The notes under the pieces were generated by a model, which was given only the letters and a program-made list of their open reading frames with translations, was not told the DNA's origin and ran no database searches. Positions 1-17,200 of a DNA stretch of 64,000 nt are shown in pieces. Position 1 is the first letter of the stretch. The number at the start of each line of letters is the position of its first letter. The DNA is from Dysgonomonas hofstadii (GTDB taxonomy: Bacteria > Bacteroidota > Bacteroidia > Bacteroidales > Dysgonomonadaceae): NCBI RefSeq assembly GCF_014196915.1, contig NZ_JACIEP010000011.1, positions 62,001 to 126,000 of the forward strand. The letters are read 5' to 3'. The translations under genes and the position numbers were made by a program.

Positions 1-2137
1 ACATGTCGTCGATCCTTTTATAATAAAAGTCCGTTGTGAATGAGAACCTGTTATTCAGCACACCGAAATCGAGGCCGACATTATATTGCTTCTGACTTTC
101 CCATTTCAGGTCATCGTTGACAACATTCGAAGGATAACGCCCTATTTCCACACTGTTTCCATTGACTACCACTTTATTGTTTGCCAGTTGTGCGAGTGAT
201 TGATATGAAGGGATCTGATTGTTTCCGGTCATCCCGAAACTAGTCCTCAGTCTCAGGTTAGAAATAAAATCGATTTCCTTGATGAATTCTTCTTCCGACG
301 CACGCCAGGCAACACTCACCGCCGGAAAATATCCGTACTTATTATTTATCCCGAATTTTGAAGATCCGTCTATACGTAAAGAAGCGTTGAGGACGTATCT
401 GTTGTCAAAGGTATATGTTCCGCGACTTATAAAAGAAGCTGTCTGATTGCCATCGTAAGTGTATTTAGGGGCGTATGTGACAAGTCCCTGGTCTATTCCC
501 CAGATGCCCAGTGCTGTATCTTCAAAGTTGGTTGCTTTGTTGTATATATTCTTCATTGTCCACTTCGAAGCCTCGAAAGCACCCATCAGGGAGAAATAGT
601 GTTTCTGTATATTTTTGGAATATTGCAGTCTGGCTTCATAGACCCAGCTGGCTTCTTCCCTGTTGGTAAGTTCCATCCGTCCTTTTTCCGATTGTCCATA
701 CCAGGTATCGGGTCCCCAGAATTTGCTTTGTCCGACTGTATATTTCCTGTAAGAAGCGCTTGTGCTGAAAGTCAGATCATCTAATATCTTGTAGTTAAAG
801 TAAATGTTACCATTCAGTTCATTGTAAGTGTTTTTAATATCCACCTGTTCTATAGCCACAAGGGGACTCATTATATTTACATTGCTGTAATTCATAATGT
901 CGGATAGTCCCGGATAGTATAAGAACGGCGATCTCTGTAATGCATTCAGCATGACACCTGTTTGCGACCAGTCATTGATAGGATTCTTATCTTTGGATGT
1001 TGAGTATGATAAATTGACGCCAACGTTTATTTTGGAACTTACCTCCTGACTCAGATTTACACGTGAGGTGAAGCGGTCGAAAGCCGAACGTTTTATGATA
1101 CCTGTATTATTAAGATATCCCAGCGAAACCATGTAATTTGTTCCGTTACTGCCGCCCGACATACTTGTATTTACTTCATGCTTTCTTGCTGTCTGCGTAA
1201 TTTCGTCCATCCATTTGTGTACGGAAGGATCGTTCCATCCTTTATTATCAATAACACCTTGCCAGAAATTAATCAGGTTCTCTCCATCGAAGGTGGCATA
1301 ATTCAGCATCTTGGTAGCATATTCTTCAGGAGAAAGTACCTCTATCGAACTTTTAGGGCTTATGTCTAATCCTCCCGTGTAGCTTAATGAAAATTTAGGT
1401 TTAGCTGATGCTGCACCCCGTTTGGTGGTGATAATAACGACACCGTTAGAACCATTTGCCCCATATATGGCAGCGGCAGCGGCATCCTTCAGTATTTCCA
1501 TCGAAGCAATGTCATTGGGATTGAGTCCCAGCAAAGGATTGTTTACGGTTTCTGTATCATCGTTTGTTATTCTTTGCGCAGGCATAGGAACACCGTCTAT
1601 TACAAACAGGGGCTGAGTACCTCCGGTAATGGAGTTTACCCCCCTGATACGGAAAGTCATCCCGCTGGATAAGGAACCATCTGTTGGGATTATCTGCACC
1701 CCGCTGACTTTTCCCTGTAAGGCCTGAAGTGTTTGTGCCGAACCGCTTTGTGTAATATCCTTCATGTTAACGGAAGCTACGGCTGTTGATATATCACTCC
1801 TTCTCTGAGTTCCATACCCGACTACTACAATTTCGTCCATTTCTGTAACTACAGGCTCAAGAATAACTGTTAGGGGACGATTGTCGCTGACTGCTATTGT
1901 CTGAGGGTTATATCCTAAAAAATTAAAGACAAGGACATCCCCCTGTTTGGCAGCAATCTTAAAATTACCGTTATCATCAGCCATCGTTCCGGTAGAAGTA
2001 TTCTTTATATTCACAGAGGCACCGGCAAGAGGTTCTCTTTTTTCATCCAAAACCTGCCCCGAAACATTAATTTGTTGTGCAAATGCAGCCATAAAGACCG
2101 GCATAATGAACAACATTATTAGTAGCATTTTCTTCAT
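1..2137 (-). CDS. SusC/RagA-family TonB-dependent receptor, 3' part cut off by window edge
   Basis: The reverse frame is open for 712 codons from an ATG at 2137 to the window edge, so only the N-terminal part is present (family members are about 1000 residues). It begins with a signal peptide (MKKMLLIMLFIMPVF...), then a carboxypeptidase-regulatory-like domain, the TonB-box motif DEIVVVGYGTQ, a plug with IRGVNSI and PLFVIDGVP, and a DAAAAAIYGANGSNG segment typical of SusC plugs. It would import an oligomeric nutrient across the outer membrane with a SusD partner, which should lie beyond the left edge. Nothing here reveals the substrate. It is a different protein from the SusC at 14.3 kb. Confidence 0.9.
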   Translation of the reverse strand, partial: MKKMLLIMLFIMPVFMAAFAQQINVSGQVLDEKREPLAGASVNIKNTSTGTMADDNGNFKIAAKQGDVLVFNFLGYNPQTIAVSDNRPLTVILEPVVTEMDEIVVVGYGTQRRSDISTAVASVNMKDITQSGSAQTLQALQGKVSGVQIIPTDGSLSSGMTFRIRGVNSITGGTQPLFVIDGVPMPAQRITNDDTETVNNPLLGLNPNDIASMEILKDAAAAAIYGANGSNGVVIITTKRGAASAKPKFSLSYTGGLDISPKSSIEVLSPEEYATKMLNYATFDGENLINFWQGVIDNKGWNDPSVHKWMDEITQTARKHEVNTSMSGGSNGTNYMVSLGYLNNTGIIKRSAFDRFTSRVNLSQEVSSKINVGVNLSYSTSKDKNPINDWSQTGVMLNALQRSPFLYYPGLSDIMNYSNVNIMSPLVAIEQVDIKNTYNELNGNIYFNYKILDDLTFSTSASYRKYTVGQSKFWGPDTWYGQSEKGRMELTNREEASWVYEARLQYSKNIQKHYFSLMGAFEASKWTMKNIYNKATNFEDTALGIWGIDQGLVTYAPKYTYDGNQTASFISRGTYTFDNRYVLNASLRIDGSSKFGINNKYGYFPAVSVAWRASEEEFIKEIDFISNLRLRTSFGMTGNNQIPSYQSLAQLANNKVVVNGNSVEIGRYPSNVVNDDLKWESQKQYNVGLDFGVLNNRFSFTTDFYYKRIDDM

Positions 2138-4089: not shown

Positions 4090-5391
4090 TTATCCGTTAA
4101 TTTCTTTCTCCAGATTTGTGATGTATTCTTCCAGATGTTTGATCTTTTCTATTGTATCTTTTATTTCTTGTTTATCTGGTTCGGGCTTTGTTTTCTCATT
4201 TTCCAGATAGGCGTTTATACTTACTTTGTATAGCCTGAAATATTTCAACGCTTCTGCATTGTTTCTAAGCCTCTTTACATAAATGTCACCTATAGTGTAA
4301 TATAAATTCATCTTTTGATTATCTGTCCCGTACTGGATAGCGGTAGCATAATTATCTGCCGACTCCTGATATTGGTCCGTTTTTGAATAAGCCTGAGCCA
4401 AATTCCTGTAATAAAGGTATAATGTAAGATCCGGAGGAATAGTCCGGTCCAGTAACTTATGAAAATAAGTTATGGCTCTTTCAGGTTCAGCCATTTCGCT
4501 GCAAGAGACAGCAAGGCAATACAATACATTATTGTTTGTTGTGTCTTGTCTGTATGCTATATCCAGAAATTCCATAGCCTTAAAACTTTCCTTTAATGAG
4601 TAATAACATAATCCTAAACTGCGGTTTACAATTACAGAAGTATCTCCGGCCGCATGGCATTTCAGAAGGCGGGGAATGGCTTCTTCATATAAGTCGGACA
4701 TGTAATAACTCAGGGCATTCAGCAGGTTTATCTGTTTATCGGTAGAATCTCTTTGCATGTAAATGTCGGAAAGCAGCCTGCCATTACCATACTGTTCTTT
4801 TTTGAGATTCAGGTTTATGAGATTTGCTGCCGAAAAGCTGTCCGTCGAATCGGTTTCCCATGCAAGGCTGTAATAATGTATTGCACTATCCGGTTCATTT
4901 ATTTTTTCGAAACATTGGGCAGATCGCTTTATCATATTCTTCAATCCGTCACGGCTGTGTATCGTTTGGTAAAGTTCCAGTGCTTTTTTAAAACTACCCT
5001 GTTGATATAACAACTCTGCCTTTTGTACTTTAAAATATGAGTTTGTTGAGTCCATGCATATCAGCGAATCGTAGCAATTTATGCTTTCATCTAATTTTCC
5101 TGCATTCGCATAACAAGTGGCCAGATCGGCTTTAAGCCGGATGTCATCAGCATGTTCAGCCGATAATTCCCTCAATATTTCAATCGCATCTTTATAATTA
5201 CCCAATGCTTTATAACAAAAGGCCTTCCGTTCCATAATCTCTTTTGTAGGTTCTTGTGTATCTATATATTCCAGCGCTTTTTGATACTGGAAATTATTAA
5301 TATAGGACAGCAATTCGCTATCGGCCTGTTGTGAATAGAGAAAGGACGTAATACTGGAAAGGAGAATGAGAAATATGAAAGGCTTTTTCAT
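4090..5391 (-). CDS. Secreted TPR-repeat protein of the BlaI/BlaR1-like cluster
   Basis: 433 residues: a signal peptide (MKKPFIFLILLSSITSFLYSQ) and then helical repeats with TPR-like spacing across about residues 25-395, such as ALGNYKDAIEILREL, YQQGSFKKALELY and AEPERAITYFHKLL. The C-terminus is charged and probably coiled-coil. No catalytic motif is seen. It should be a periplasmic or envelope scaffold. It follows the BlaR1-TonB gene on the same strand after a 103-base gap holding a strong hairpin, so it may be cotranscribed at a lower level. The exact role is unknown. Confidence 0.75.
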   Translation of the reverse strand: MKKPFIFLILLSSITSFLYSQQADSELLSYINNFQYQKALEYIDTQEPTKEIMERKAFCYKALGNYKDAIEILRELSAEHADDIRLKADLATCYANAGKLDESINCYDSLICMDSTNSYFKVQKAELLYQQGSFKKALELYQTIHSRDGLKNMIKRSAQCFEKINEPDSAIHYYSLAWETDSTDSFSAANLINLNLKKEQYGNGRLLSDIYMQRDSTDKQINLLNALSYYMSDLYEEAIPRLLKCHAAGDTSVIVNRSLGLCYYSLKESFKAMEFLDIAYRQDTTNNNVLYCLAVSCSEMAEPERAITYFHKLLDRTIPPDLTLYLYYRNLAQAYSKTDQYQESADNYATAIQYGTDNQKMNLYYTIGDIYVKRLRNNAEALKYFRLYKVSINAYLENEKTKPEPDKQEIKDTIEKIKHLEEYITNLEKEING

Positions 5392-5494: not shown

Positions 5495-7207
5495 CTACGA
5501 TTGAGGCATATTTTCTTTGGGCTCATCTTTTTTCAGCCTGTAAACGATAGGTAATGTAAAATACACAGGAACGTCCTGTCCATTTTGTTTACCCGGAGTC
5601 CAGTTGGGCATAGCTTTGATGACTCTCGCAGCTTCTGCATCAGCTTCGGGAGAAATTCCTCTTATAATATTTACATCACTAATGCTTCCATCAGCACCTA
5701 CAATAAAACGGATAGTTACACGCCCCTGCACACCTGCTTTTTGCGCTTCTTCCGGATATTTAAGGTTATTGCCTATATATTCCTGCATTGCTTTTTCTCC
5801 TCCCGGGAACATTGGCATTTGTTCAACAGTTATAAATGGTTTACTATTGTCACTCATTGATGTGGCATTAGCCTTTTCTTTAGAACCATATCCCACTACT
5901 ACAACTTCATCTTTATTTCCTGATGAAGCAGTATTATTTTTACTTCCTTTTAATTTAAAGACGACAGGCAATGTGAAATATACATCGACCGCTTTTCCAT
6001 CTTGCTTGCCCGGAGTCCAGTCAGGCATAGCCTTAATTACCCGGATAGCTTCTTCATCTAGCAAAGCATTTGTTTTTCTTACTGTGACTACATCAGCTAT
6101 TTCGCCGGTACTCTTTACAATAAAACGTACAACAACGCGTCCTTCCGCTTTGTCTTTTTGTGCTTCTGCCGGATATTTCAGGTTCGATGCAATGAACTTA
6201 TGCATTTCACTCTCTCCACCCGGATATTCAGGCATTTCTTCAACAACAGTATATACGTCTCCTTTCTTTTGTGGAACCTGATTCCCGTCAAAAGTAGTTT
6301 CTTCTGTAATAATATTTATCAGATCGGTAGATGAAGCCTGTACTGCATTTCCCAGCAGCAGAGCCGAACCTATCGGTATTGCCAGCAAGTATTTTACAGC
6401 CTTGGCTATAGATGTTTTCCTTTTATTCATCATGGTAATTCGTTTTTTTAACTGTGAAACATTGAAATTATTGATAAGTGGTATACCGGTACTTTTATTC
6501 GAAACTTGTAATAATATATATTGGTATTCTTTGCTGTCGAAGCCGGCGATTAATACGCCTTCATCGGCAAGATATTCCAGGTTTATTTTCATCTCTTTTT
6601 TTATCAGCCAGGCAAAAGGATTCCACCAGAAACAGATACACAATATTTCGGATAAGATAACATCTATAGAATGGTACTGTCTGGCATGTATTTGTTCATG
6701 AGTTATAATTTCGCCTAATTCATGCTGGTTATATCTGCCTGAGTTGACAAAAATCCATTTAAAGAAAGAGAACGGAGATGTTTCTTTATCCTTTATTTTT
6801 ACAATATGGCAGTTTTGCAGATCTTCAGTTTCGCTGTTTGTCCTTAATCTGAAAATACTGAACAGTTGTGCGAGGAAGCGTAAGGCAAACAATATGGATA
6901 CAATAATAATGAGAATGATTATCACATCCCATATACCGACAGGTTTTTCGGTAATGCTGTCTGTGGCGGTAACCCCCAGTTCAAAATCGGAAAGCCAGTA
7001 ACCGGGTATCTGCATGGCAGCATCTGTATTATTCGAGAGTTCCAGTTTTACAAAGGGAAAAACAACAGAAAAAAGGATGGCGAACAGAAAGAAAAATCTT
7101 CTTATTTTCAGGAATGTATCGTTCCTGAGGCAAAACATATATAGCATATAGAACATGGCAAGTGCGACAGAAACTTTTATCTGATATATAAAAAATATAT
7201 TATCCAT
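5495..7207 (-). CDS. BlaR1-like M56 metallopeptidase with two TonB C-terminal domains
   Basis: 570 residues. Three membrane segments (about 5-25, 33-55 and 95-115) precede a zinc-peptidase loop with the HExxH motif HEQIH (about 169-173), then EILCICFWWNPF and another membrane helix (about 265-285). The rest is periplasmic and holds two TonB-C domains (about 325-420 and 465-560), each with YPGGE/FPGGE, NLKYP, GRVxxRFIV and MPxWTPGKQ. Members of this family sense an envelope signal and cleave a BlaI repressor, here encoded just upstream. The linker (433-442) reads DEVVVVGYGS, which resembles a SusC TonB box. The ligand is unknown, and a beta-lactam is not implied. Confidence 0.85.
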   Translation of the reverse strand: MDNIFFIYQIKVSVALAMFYMLYMFCLRNDTFLKIRRFFFLFAILFSVVFPFVKLELSNNTDAAMQIPGYWLSDFELGVTATDSITEKPVGIWDVIIILIIIVSILFALRFLAQLFSIFRLRTNSETEDLQNCHIVKIKDKETSPFSFFKWIFVNSGRYNQHELGEIITHEQIHARQYHSIDVILSEILCICFWWNPFAWLIKKEMKINLEYLADEGVLIAGFDSKEYQYILLQVSNKSTGIPLINNFNVSQLKKRITMMNKRKTSIAKAVKYLLAIPIGSALLLGNAVQASSTDLINIITEETTFDGNQVPQKKGDVYTVVEEMPEYPGGESEMHKFIASNLKYPAEAQKDKAEGRVVVRFIVKSTGEIADVVTVRKTNALLDEEAIRVIKAMPDWTPGKQDGKAVDVYFTLPVVFKLKGSKNNTASSGNKDEVVVVGYGSKEKANATSMSDNSKPFITVEQMPMFPGGEKAMQEYIGNNLKYPEEAQKAGVQGRVTIRFIVGADGSISDVNIIRGISPEADAEAARVIKAMPNWTPGKQNGQDVPVYFTLPIVYRLKKDEPKENMPQS

Positions 7208-7295: not shown

Positions 7296-7321
7296 CAATA
7301 AAAAGGTCTGCGACCTTATTG
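7296..7321 (-). terminator. Hairpin overlapping the blaI stop; core shared with 62.5 kb
   Basis: Arms AAGGT (7303-7307) and ACCTT (7313-7317) enclose CTGCG, with outer CAAT/ATTG pairs. It lies between the repressor and the BlaR1-like gene and is followed on the minus strand by TTTTG. The core AAGGTCTGCGRCCTT recurs at 62536-62550. Confidence 0.55.
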
Positions 7322-7678
7322 TTTTCCTTTTTCTATCATTTCCATTATTTCCTTCAGTTCTTTAGGAGAAATTTTCTCTTCTTTCACGAAGAAGGAAACC
7401 AATTCTTTATAGGAGTTCTCAAAATAACTCCTGACAACGTCCGACATAAATACTTTTTTGTATTCCTCTTCTTTTATCTTTGGGGAATATACCCATACAT
7501 TTCCGTATTTCTTTGCATTCAGGTAGCCTTTTTGCTCCAGATTGCGTACTATGGAGGCCACAGTAGTATATGGAGGTTTAGGATCATCCATCTTGTTTAC
7601 GATGTCTTTCACTACGCATTCTTCCAATTGCCATATATTTATCATAACCGATTCTTCCTGATGGGTAAGTTTTTCCAT
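7316..7678 (-). CDS. blaI: BlaI/MecI-family transcriptional repressor
   Basis: 120 residues from the chosen ATG at 7678 (MEKLTHQEESVM). A longer frame exists to 7723, but it would put the operator palindrome inside the gene, so the shorter start is preferred. The N-terminal winged helix contains the family pattern PKPPYTTVASIVRNLEQKGYL, and the C-terminal helices would dimerise. The repressor should bind the palindrome at 7694-7720 and be inactivated through the BlaR1-like peptidase encoded next. Gene order blaI - M56/TonB - TPR is consistent with one regulated operon. Confidence 0.88.
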   Translation of the reverse strand: MEKLTHQEESVMINIWQLEECVVKDIVNKMDDPKPPYTTVASIVRNLEQKGYLNAKKYGNVWVYSPKIKEEEYKKVFMSDVVRSYFENSYKELVSFFVKEEKISPKELKEIMEMIEKGKQ

Positions 7679-7693
7679 GTTATTATATTTTGG

Positions 7694-7720
7694 TATATCT
7701 ACGAAATTTTCGTAAATATA
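7694..7720. promoter_or_regulatory. Predicted BlaI operator, 27-bp palindrome
   Basis: The two 13-base halves around a central T at 7707 match at 12 of 13 positions. The core TACGAAATTTTCGTA (7700-7714) is symmetrical apart from its centre. The right half also holds a weak minus-strand -7 box (TATATTTA, 7720-7713), so a bound repressor would cover the promoter. It ends 16 bases before the blaI ATG. Confidence 0.75.
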
Positions 7721-7770
7721 CATAAAGGTTTTCTAATAATTCAAATAATTATAAATATTTTTTGAAAAAT

Positions 7771-14264: not shown

Positions 14265-17200
14265 ATGAAAAAAAATCAGAAAAAGAAATGGACTTATCTC
14301 AACAGAATATGTCTGCTTACCTTGTCTTTGTTCTTTGTGGCCGGTTTATCGGCGCAAAGTCAGAAACAGATTACAGGGACTGTTCTCGATGAAAAAGGAG
14401 AGAGCATTATTGGGGCATCGGTTTCAGTGAAAGGAACAACAAACGGGACAATTACGGATATAGACGGCCGGTTCTCTTTGAGTGTTGAAGATAATTCGGT
14501 GATAACCATATCATATCTGGGATTTCTTCCCCAGGATATTTCTGTCACAGGAAAAACAGACTTCCGGATCACATTGAAAGAAAATGCCGCATTGCTCGAC
14601 GAAATAGTTGTTGTCGGTTACGGTGTTGTGAAAAAACGCGACCTGACCGGATCACTTTCTTCTGTCGGAGCAAAGGTCATGCAGGACAAACCCGTATCAA
14701 ATATTGGAGAAGCTCTTCAGGGACGTGCTGCCGGCGTACAGGTGATTAATTCGGGGGCGCCGGGTAGCAATGTGAGTATCCGTGTCCGTGGGTTAGGTTC
14801 GATAAATAATTCCGATCCCCTGTTGGTTATCGACGGAGTTCCCACCGATATGCCACTAAATGCCCTTAATCAGAATGATGTAGAAACCATCGATATTTTG
14901 AAAGACGCTTCGGCCACTGCCATTTACGGTTCCCGTGGAGCAAACGGGGTAGTTCTGATCACTACAAAAAAAGGTAAAGACGGAGATGGGGTAATCTCAA
15001 TAGGAGCAAACTGGGGTATACAGGATGCTACCAGTGTACCCGGGATGTTGAATGCTGCGCAATTCGCCTCTTTGCACAATGAGATGATGGCCAATAATGG
15101 TATCGGGCAGCGTCCCGATTTTGCCGATCCGCTTTCGTGGGGTACAGGCACCGATTGGACAGACGCGTTGTTACGTACAGCTTTGATGCAGAATTATTCG
15201 GTTTCATACTCAGGTGGAAATGATAAAAGTAATTATTATGTGTCGGGTGGGGTGTTCGACCAGAAAGGTATTGTTATAAATACGTCCTACCGCCGTTATA
15301 CAATTCAGTTCAATAATGAGTCGAAAGTACGGTCATGGTTGAAATTCGGTAATAATGTGACCTTGAGCCACGATGTGAAGAAGAGCGGTTCATACGATGT
15401 GCTCAATACTCTGGCTTCCCTGCCTACGCAGCCTATATTCAATGAAGATGGCACATACTCGGGCCCCGGTACAGAGCCTCAGTTCTATGGCGATCTTCGC
15501 AACCCGATCGGTACGGCCAATCTGGACCAAAAGACAACAAAAGGCTATAATATATTAGGCAGCCTGTATGGAGAAGTCACTCTTTTCGATAAAATAATCT
15601 ATAAAATGACGGGTGGGATCGACTTCAAATTCTGGGATGAGGTAAATTTCTCACCAAAATACGACTGGAAACCCATACCTGTTCCTAACTCGTATCGTAG
15701 TGAAAGTTCCAACAAAAGTCTTACTTATCTGTGGGATAACACTGTCACCTATATGGACACATTCAATGAAAAGCATAACCTGAGTATAATGCTGGGTTCC
15801 AGTGCTCAGAATAATGTGTACAACTATATGAATGCAAGTATAAAGGAATTCTTGTCGGACAGCAATAACCAGTTGAATAACGGGTTGCTTGACGCTACTG
15901 CGGGCGGTAGCAAAAATGAGTGGGCTTTACTTTCATTTTTCGGGCGTGTAAATTATTCGTTCGATAATAAATACCTGTTAACGGCTACAGTTCGCCGCGA
16001 CGGCACATCACGCATTACTAAAGCCAATCGTTGGGGAACATTCCCTTCTTTCTCGGCTGCGTGGCGTTTGTCGGAAGAATCCTTCTATAAGAAAAATGAT
16101 ATTTTAAGCGACCTTAAAATCCGTTTAGGGTATGGAGTAACAGGTAATCAGGCAGTGCTTGATAATTATGCTGCCGTTACCCGTCTGAAAACTGCTCAGT
16201 ATGTATTTAATGGTACGCCTGTTTCCACATTATATCCGTTAGTGATGCCAAATCCCGATATAAAATGGGAAACCGTGAAGCAGGCAAATATCGGATTCGA
16301 TGCAACTTTACTTAACCAGCGTATAAACCTGACTTTCGACGCATACATCAAAAAGACGACCGATATGCTTGTTAGTATGGTTGTGCCGATCACAACCGGA
16401 TATTCAGATATCTATACGCCTATGATCAATGCCGGAGAAGTGAAGAACACAGGTTGGGAACTGACTGTTTCTTCACAAAATATGAGAGGTGCATTTGAAT
16501 GGAATACCGACTTTAATGTATCTTATAACAAAAACAAAGTGATAAAACTGAATAATGGTACTCCGATTTATTACGGCTATCAGTCTCATATCGAAGGACG
16601 TCCTGTGGGTTCATTCTATGGCTGGGTAACAAACGGATTGTTCCAGAACTGGGATGAGGTAAATAACTATGCCTACCAGTATCAGGGAGCGGATGCGGCA
16701 AATGGTACGGCACCCGGTGATATCAAATTTTTGGATATAAACAACGATGGGGTGGTAAACGATTACGACCGTACTTATATAGGAAATCCGACTCCTGCAT
16801 GGAACTTCTCTATGAATAACAGTTTTTCATATCGTAATTTCGATTTACAGATATTCCTGCAGGGAGTAGCCGGAAATAAGATCTATAATGCAAACAGGGT
16901 AACACTTGAAGGTATGTACACGATCAGAAACCAGACTACAAAAGTTCTCGATCGCTGGACAGGTGAAGGCACAAGTAATTCTATCCCCCGGGCTATATAC
17001 AGTGACCCGAATAAGAATACCCGTAATTCAGACCGCTTTATTGAGGATGGAAAATACCTGCGACTCAAGAACCTGACATTCGGTTATACACTGCCCGCTT
17101 CATTGATAAAGAAGGCGTATATCAGTAATCTGCGTGTCTATATGTCGGCACAGAATTTACTGACACTGACAAAATACTCGGGCTTCGATCCTGAAGTGCA

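Follow-up and report, generated by a model that had tools for sequence, protein, structure and literature searches.

A 570-residue BlaR1-like sensor protein of Dysgonomonas hofstadii carries a copy of the SusC-type Ton box in the linker between its two TonB C-terminal (TonB_C) domains. The motif recurs among the M56 relatives of this protein, lies outside the folded domains, keeps a recurrent distance from the TonB_C domain before it and has a BlaI-family gene as neighbor. We consider it very probably real and under selection. The interpretation we favor, possible but still somewhat short of probable, is that the tethered Ton box docks on the TonB_C domain of its own chain, is displaced by the boxes of receptors and in this way signals to the M56 protease and to BlaI. 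The features concerned lie in a stretch of 64,000 nucleotides (the window; contig NZ_JACIEP010000011.1, positions 62,001 to 126,000) and are as follows.

5495..7207, minus strand: gene of the sensor with the order M56, TonB_C, box, TonB_C (ORF, 570 aa)
6428..7180, minus strand: Peptidase_M56 domain, residues 10-260 (Pfam PF05569)
6686..6700, minus strand: HEQIH, the HExxH zinc motif of metalloproteases, residues 170-174 (sequence)
5945..6247, minus strand: TonB_C domain 1, residues 321-421 (Pfam PF03544; limits from our own TonB_C profile)
5906..5953, minus strand: 16-residue spacer from the F-x-L end of TonB_C domain 1 to the box, residues 419-434 (spacing measurement)
5882..5911, minus strand: Ton-box-like motif DEVVVVGYGS, residues 433-442 (translation; likeness to the box of the SusC protein Bt1763)
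5891..5905, minus strand: core VVVVG, residues 435-439, a weak predicted strand with pLDDT mostly 50-70 (AlphaFold2)
5525..5830, minus strand: TonB_C domain 2, residues 460-561 (Pfam PF03544; limits from our own profile; structure match to the TonB C-terminal domain)
7316..7723, minus strand: BlaI/Penicillinase_R repressor gene just upstream of the sensor gene (Pfam PF03965)
4090..5391, minus strand: TPR protein gene downstream of the sensor gene (Pfam)

By its sequence the protein is a member of the M56 family: the Peptidase_M56 match scores 52.2 bits at a Pfam cut-off of 31, and HExxH is present in 144 of 151 M56 relatives. Both TonB_C stretches lie above the Pfam cut-off, and the protein matches TIGR01352 as well. 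A homolog of the BlaI gene was found at 78 of 80 related loci and one of the TPR gene, which is probably in the same operon as the sensor gene, at 20 of 80. The source genome encodes three M56 proteins.

With BlaR1/MecR1 and their repressors BlaI/MecI the window protein shares the M56 domain with HExxH, a C-terminal extracytoplasmic sensor part and the adjoining BlaI-family gene. The sensor part itself is different: it is a penicillin-binding domain in BlaR1 but TonB_C with a Ton box here. Pfam finds only M56 and TonB_C in the 570 residues and no penicillin-binding/beta-lactamase-like sensor domain; thus the protein is not a BlaR1 beta-lactam sensor. Its score with the NCBIfam model blaR1_generic is 26.8 bits, the cut-off being 400. 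As judged from its domains it is neither a TonB nor a receptor. It has the TonB_C fold in common with TonB, yet its membrane part is the M56 protease domain (Pfam) in place of a TonB-type anchor, and a tethered box is added. With SusC/RagA receptors such as Bt1763 it shares the box sequence, and the CarboxypepD_reg and plug modules found on either side of the SusC box recur in some of its relatives. Unlike these receptors, it contains no plug or beta-barrel family (Pfam), and its box stands beside TonB_C on one chain.

After the last membrane helix, residues 286-292 (approximately 6332-6352) form a signal-peptidase-I-like motif. Such motifs (NAVQA-S, NSVYA-Q) are seen in many TonB_C-bearing M56 proteins, 37 of 110 matching N[SATCV][VIAT]xA, and cleavage at this site might release the periplasmic part.

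The Ton box of Bt1763, a SusC protein of B. thetaiotaomicron, is DEVVVTG at residues 82-88 (PMC7782687); the DEVVVVG of the sensor is identical in six of seven positions and differs in one. As described in the same paper, deletion of VDEVVV in Bt1763 or its replacement by alanines impaired growth on levan much as deletion of SusD does (PMC7782687). The two SusC-type boxes of the window (14607-14624, plus strand; 1811-1828, minus strand) read DEIVVVGYG. The sequence-only reading had pointed out this resemblance for DEVVVVGYGS at residues 433-442 (5882-5911, minus strand) and had located the motif between the two TonB_C domains of a BlaR1-type sensor. The translation agrees with this, and given the TonB_C limits of 321-421 and 460-561 the motif falls into a linker of 38 residues.

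In the whole genome (5.04 Mb), DNA coding for VVVGYG occurs at 21 sites, compared with 2 for the reversed control pattern. Eighteen of the 21 are SusC-type by context, as judged by eye from the translations; the other three are in an A2M-family protein, a DUF4139 protein and the window sensor. There are 15 TonB_C matches in the genome, and outside the window sensor none coincides with a VVVGYG site, which leaves this sensor as the only TonB_C protein of the genome with the motif. The A2M-family protein and the DUF4139/DUF4140 protein, the latter with a CarbopepD_reg_2 insert, are not receptors, yet both carry the SusC-type LDEVVVVGYG (loci L014, G000:C6:17840-20856, and L019, G000:C18:75011-78027) and, going by this motif, may also be TonB clients.

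Conservation of the box among orthologs holds in part. In a genus sample of 25 genomes, including the source genome, 11 of the 16 orthologs with at least two TonB_C domains retain the box, although these 11 include near-copies (L026/L027, L029/L030). Among the remaining five the box is degenerate in one (ITVSGYE, by eye) and absent from four. None of the three genus orthologs with a single TonB_C domain has a box. When 12 orthologs were aligned without reference to the motif, no other run of seven linker columns was conserved as well as residues 435-441, which have a mean pairwise identity of 0.36 compared with 0.15 in the remainder of the linker and 0.58 and 0.63 in the two TonB_C domains. 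Orthologs selected by the box give column identities of 0.73 versus 0.20 and 0.08, values that involve some circularity, the motif itself having served to pick the rows; therefore the case for conservation rests on the motif-blind alignment.

Beyond the genus, 315 loci yielded 253 complete M56 ORFs and, after clustering at 85% identity, 151 non-redundant proteins; ORFs truncated by the 3' border of a locus, M56 ORFs shorter than 330 aa and near-copies at 85% were left out of the counts. In the periplasmic parts of the 151 proteins the strict box pattern occurs 30 times, whereas 0.24 occurrences are expected from shuffling, and by profile none of these boxes lies inside a TonB_C fold and none was found in the M56 parts. 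The loose pattern occurs 52 times versus 5.4 expected from shuffling, with 5 in M56 parts and again none of the 52 within the profile limits of TonB_C. On the M56 tree the state of the box changes at least 25 times, 12 of these changes being forced by well-supported branches. Thus the box was often lost, gained or moved, as is the case with short linear motifs. From these changes, and from the five of 16 orthologs in which the box is missing or degenerate, it follows that a latch formed by it would be dispensable. Ordinary TonB proteins do not appear as box carriers: of 37 non-redundant non-M56 ORFs with TonB_C, two that match the loose pattern were set aside as probable M56 pieces (L089 comes after an in-frame TGA of an M56 gene, L193 is cut by the locus edge), and none of the other 35 has a box.

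The structure of sensor residues 307-570 was predicted with AlphaFold2 from 34 sequences. Both TonB_C domains are modeled with high confidence, the model as a whole has a pTM of 0.52, and the linker mostly has a pLDDT below 70. The box is outside both folds, with a pLDDT of 43-52 around it and a weak strand at 435-439. This corresponds to the flexible linker supposed by the sequence-only reading and, together with the absence of strict (0 of 30) and loose (0 of 52) boxes from TonB_C domains, rejects the possibility of a buried TonB_C strand. A docked box in the window sensor is not predicted confidently. The picture is clearer for the relative L164, of which a single TonB_C domain with its tail was modeled from 18 sequences: here the tail box VVVVGY is predicted as a strand within a segment whose pLDDT is about 89 (pTM 0.82; partner strand not reported). 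Binding of DEVVVVGYGS to a TonB C-terminal domain is therefore a prediction, with strand docking modeled only in this relative. Chain 6i97_D, the TonB C-terminal domain bound to FoxA, matches both models (Z 9.4, rmsd 1.8, 89 aligned; Z 10.9, rmsd 1.9, 89 aligned), and the match with Z 10.9 is listed for TonB_C domain 2 of the sensor.

The distance between TonB_C and the box was counted starting at the F-x-L that ends the preceding domain; 7 of 50 boxes had no such anchor. It amounts to 15-20 residues (median 17) in 34 of the 43 boxes that could be anchored, whether these lie in linkers or in tails, a pattern noticed post hoc and inflated by common ancestry, especially among the many tail boxes. 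The spacer sequences of these boxes are unlike between lineages. Exceptions are distances of 11 (two of Bacteroidaceae type), 29 (five linkers of Petrimonas type) and 39 (L164 type) and one mis-anchored row. For the linker boxes alone (n = 17), the upstream spacing is not tighter than the downstream spacing (SD 6.5 versus 4.9), so that these show no preference for the preceding domain. Of the proteins with neither box nor plug, 48 of 54 end at most 14 residues past the last TonB_C domain; hence the tails seem to be present for the sake of the box.

The sequence-only reading had proposed a self-docking latch and had attached special meaning to the position between two domains. The docking part of this proposal gains from the predicted strand in L164 and from the spacing of 15-20 residues. 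The two-domain geometry turned out not to be general: among the 110 M56 proteins with TonB_C, 46 have a box, which is in the tail in 25, in the linker in 14, in both in 4 and before the first TonB_C domain in 3. A special clamp made of two domains is thus rejected as the general case.

How could such a latch work? The BlaR1-like sensor would consist of an M56 zinc protease in the inner membrane and of periplasmic TonB_C domains to which a copy of the SusC Ton box is tethered. The spacer of about 16 residues would let the box fold back onto the TonB_C domain just before it, where it would extend the sheet at a free edge by one more beta strand and fill the groove meant for the Ton box of a receptor. 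The Ton box of FhuA adds parallel to strand beta3 of TonB (PMC11658791), and by analogy with FhuA-TonB we infer the beta3 edge as the docking site in the sensor. Parallel addition to the preceding domain needs a crossover, which the spacer could supply. If many receptor boxes were exposed, as on SusC proteins that are loaded or wrongly assembled, they would compete with the tethered box; its displacement would change the shape of the periplasmic part and be signaled to the M56 protease, which would cleave BlaI and derepress its targets as in BlaR1, whose signaling to protease and BlaI serves as the model (PMC7593790). In favor of the latch, the box resembles a Ton box that SusC cannot function without, and both the predicted tail-box strand of L164 and the recurrent spacing lend additional support to self-docking. 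Docking in cis is slightly on the probable side, whereas competition from the boxes of receptors is a guess, and in our view a doubtful one.

A precedent for sequestration in cis is FpvA, in which the signaling domain and the strand holding the protein's own Ton box form a four-stranded sheet (PMC11658791). As described there, the Ton box of FpvA is likewise bound in cis by a small mixed domain, in the service of transcriptional signaling (PMC11658791). The difference is that FpvA is an outer-membrane receptor, whereas the holder in the window protein would be TonB_C in an inner-membrane protease.

Alternatively, the box could act in trans as a bait for energized TonB-ExbBD, with pulling or occupancy reporting free TonB and docking in cis being secondary. 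That the box copies a SusC box, which works with TonB, and occupies a flexible segment, either linker or tail, of the kind that TonB needs for access, is in line with this. However, boxes accompany TonB_C on the same chain, being present in 46 of 110 M56 proteins with TonB_C but in 2 of 41 without (Fisher p 3.6e-6), an association that ancestry can explain since the M56 tree shows just two changes of TonB_C itself, leaving 2 independent pairs, too few to give a tree-based test any power. The recurrent spacing and the confidently predicted L164 strand also favor cis, and we regard a bait for TonB as unlikely.

A relic is a further explanation: N-terminal pieces of SusC (CarboxypepD_reg, box and plug) would have been gained by fusion, the box being a harmless leftover. 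Relatives with CarbopepD_reg_2 (L162) and Plug (L206, L022) were indeed found by Pfam, the order of SusC is retained in some, and five of 16 orthologs, including the degenerate one, lack the box. The neighbors of the 52 loose boxes are TonB_C and TonB_C in 17 cases, TonB_C and the protein end in 16, CarboxypepD_reg and the end in 11, CarboxypepD_reg and TonB_C in 4, TonB_C and plug in 2 and plug repeats on both sides in 2. At least one SusC-like neighbor is thus retained by 19 of the 52, but the other 33 follow a TonB_C domain and are themselves followed by a further TonB_C or by the protein end, meaning that the box outlives its SusC neighbors. Within the rapidly diverging linker it is moreover the most conserved part, and short C-terminal tails consist of spacer and box. 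A mere leftover is quite improbable in our view.

The box might also dock on the TonB_C domain of a second sensor and hold an oligomer together. The same sequence evidence as for docking in cis applies to such a swap, and the flexible 38-residue linker would permit it; yet the recurrent spacing and the tail-box docking predicted for a single chain of L164 require no second chain, and we consider the swap very unlikely. Finally, chance resemblance of a hydrophobic linker to a Ton box has a negligible probability and is rejected: the motif is short and valine-rich and the loose pattern is expected 5.4 times, but 30 strict boxes stand against 0.24 expected and the motif is conserved in orthologs.

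The tethered latch can be placed in a wider frame. The PDZ domain of DegS binds the C-termini of outer-membrane proteins. DegS is an inner-membrane protease with a periplasmic signal-sensing domain (PMC7593790), and the window protein shares this layout; DegS, though, combines a serine protease with PDZ, whereas the window protein combines M56 with TonB_C and a tethered pseudo-ligand. The M56-TonB_C proteins of Bacteroidales could accordingly be imagined as a DegS-like alarm that reads exposed SusC-type Ton boxes, the tethered pseudo-Ton-box setting the threshold. We think this rather unlikely as it stands; if true, the state of outer-membrane import or the misassembly of receptors would be passed on to BlaI-controlled transcription.

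In the open PMC literature, surveyed by titles and the beginnings of abstracts, we recognized no description of a Ton box within a sensor protein of the M56 or TonB_C kind, and in the open PMC literature we found no description of the signal sensed by the BlaI-M56 pairs of Bacteroidota. A Ton box beside TonB_C on the sensor offers a testable answer to what these pairs sense: their input may be the Ton boxes of the receptors through which glycans, B12 and iron are imported. If so, this would be a new input for BlaR1-type signaling, by which Bacteroidota of the gut and the environment could monitor both the workload and the malfunction of the importers in their outer membrane.

Several of the related loci show unusual arrangements of these modules. 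At L162, L098 and L115-like loci of Proteiniphilum/Fermentimonas type, a CarboxypepD_reg domain interrupts a degenerate TonB_C domain just ahead of its final strand; this strand, VFRLQ, comes after the insert, and the box follows 17-20 residues later. The M56 proteins of L172 (an ORF of 1000 aa), L022 and L206 contain repeated plug-like segments (PLVIVDG...YGEEGKNGVI), beside which L022 and L172 have the box-like VKVIGYG / EVIVRGYG. The L183, L185 and L164 loci (Petrimonas/Proteiniphilum type) have tandem M56-TonB_C genes, only some of which carry a box.
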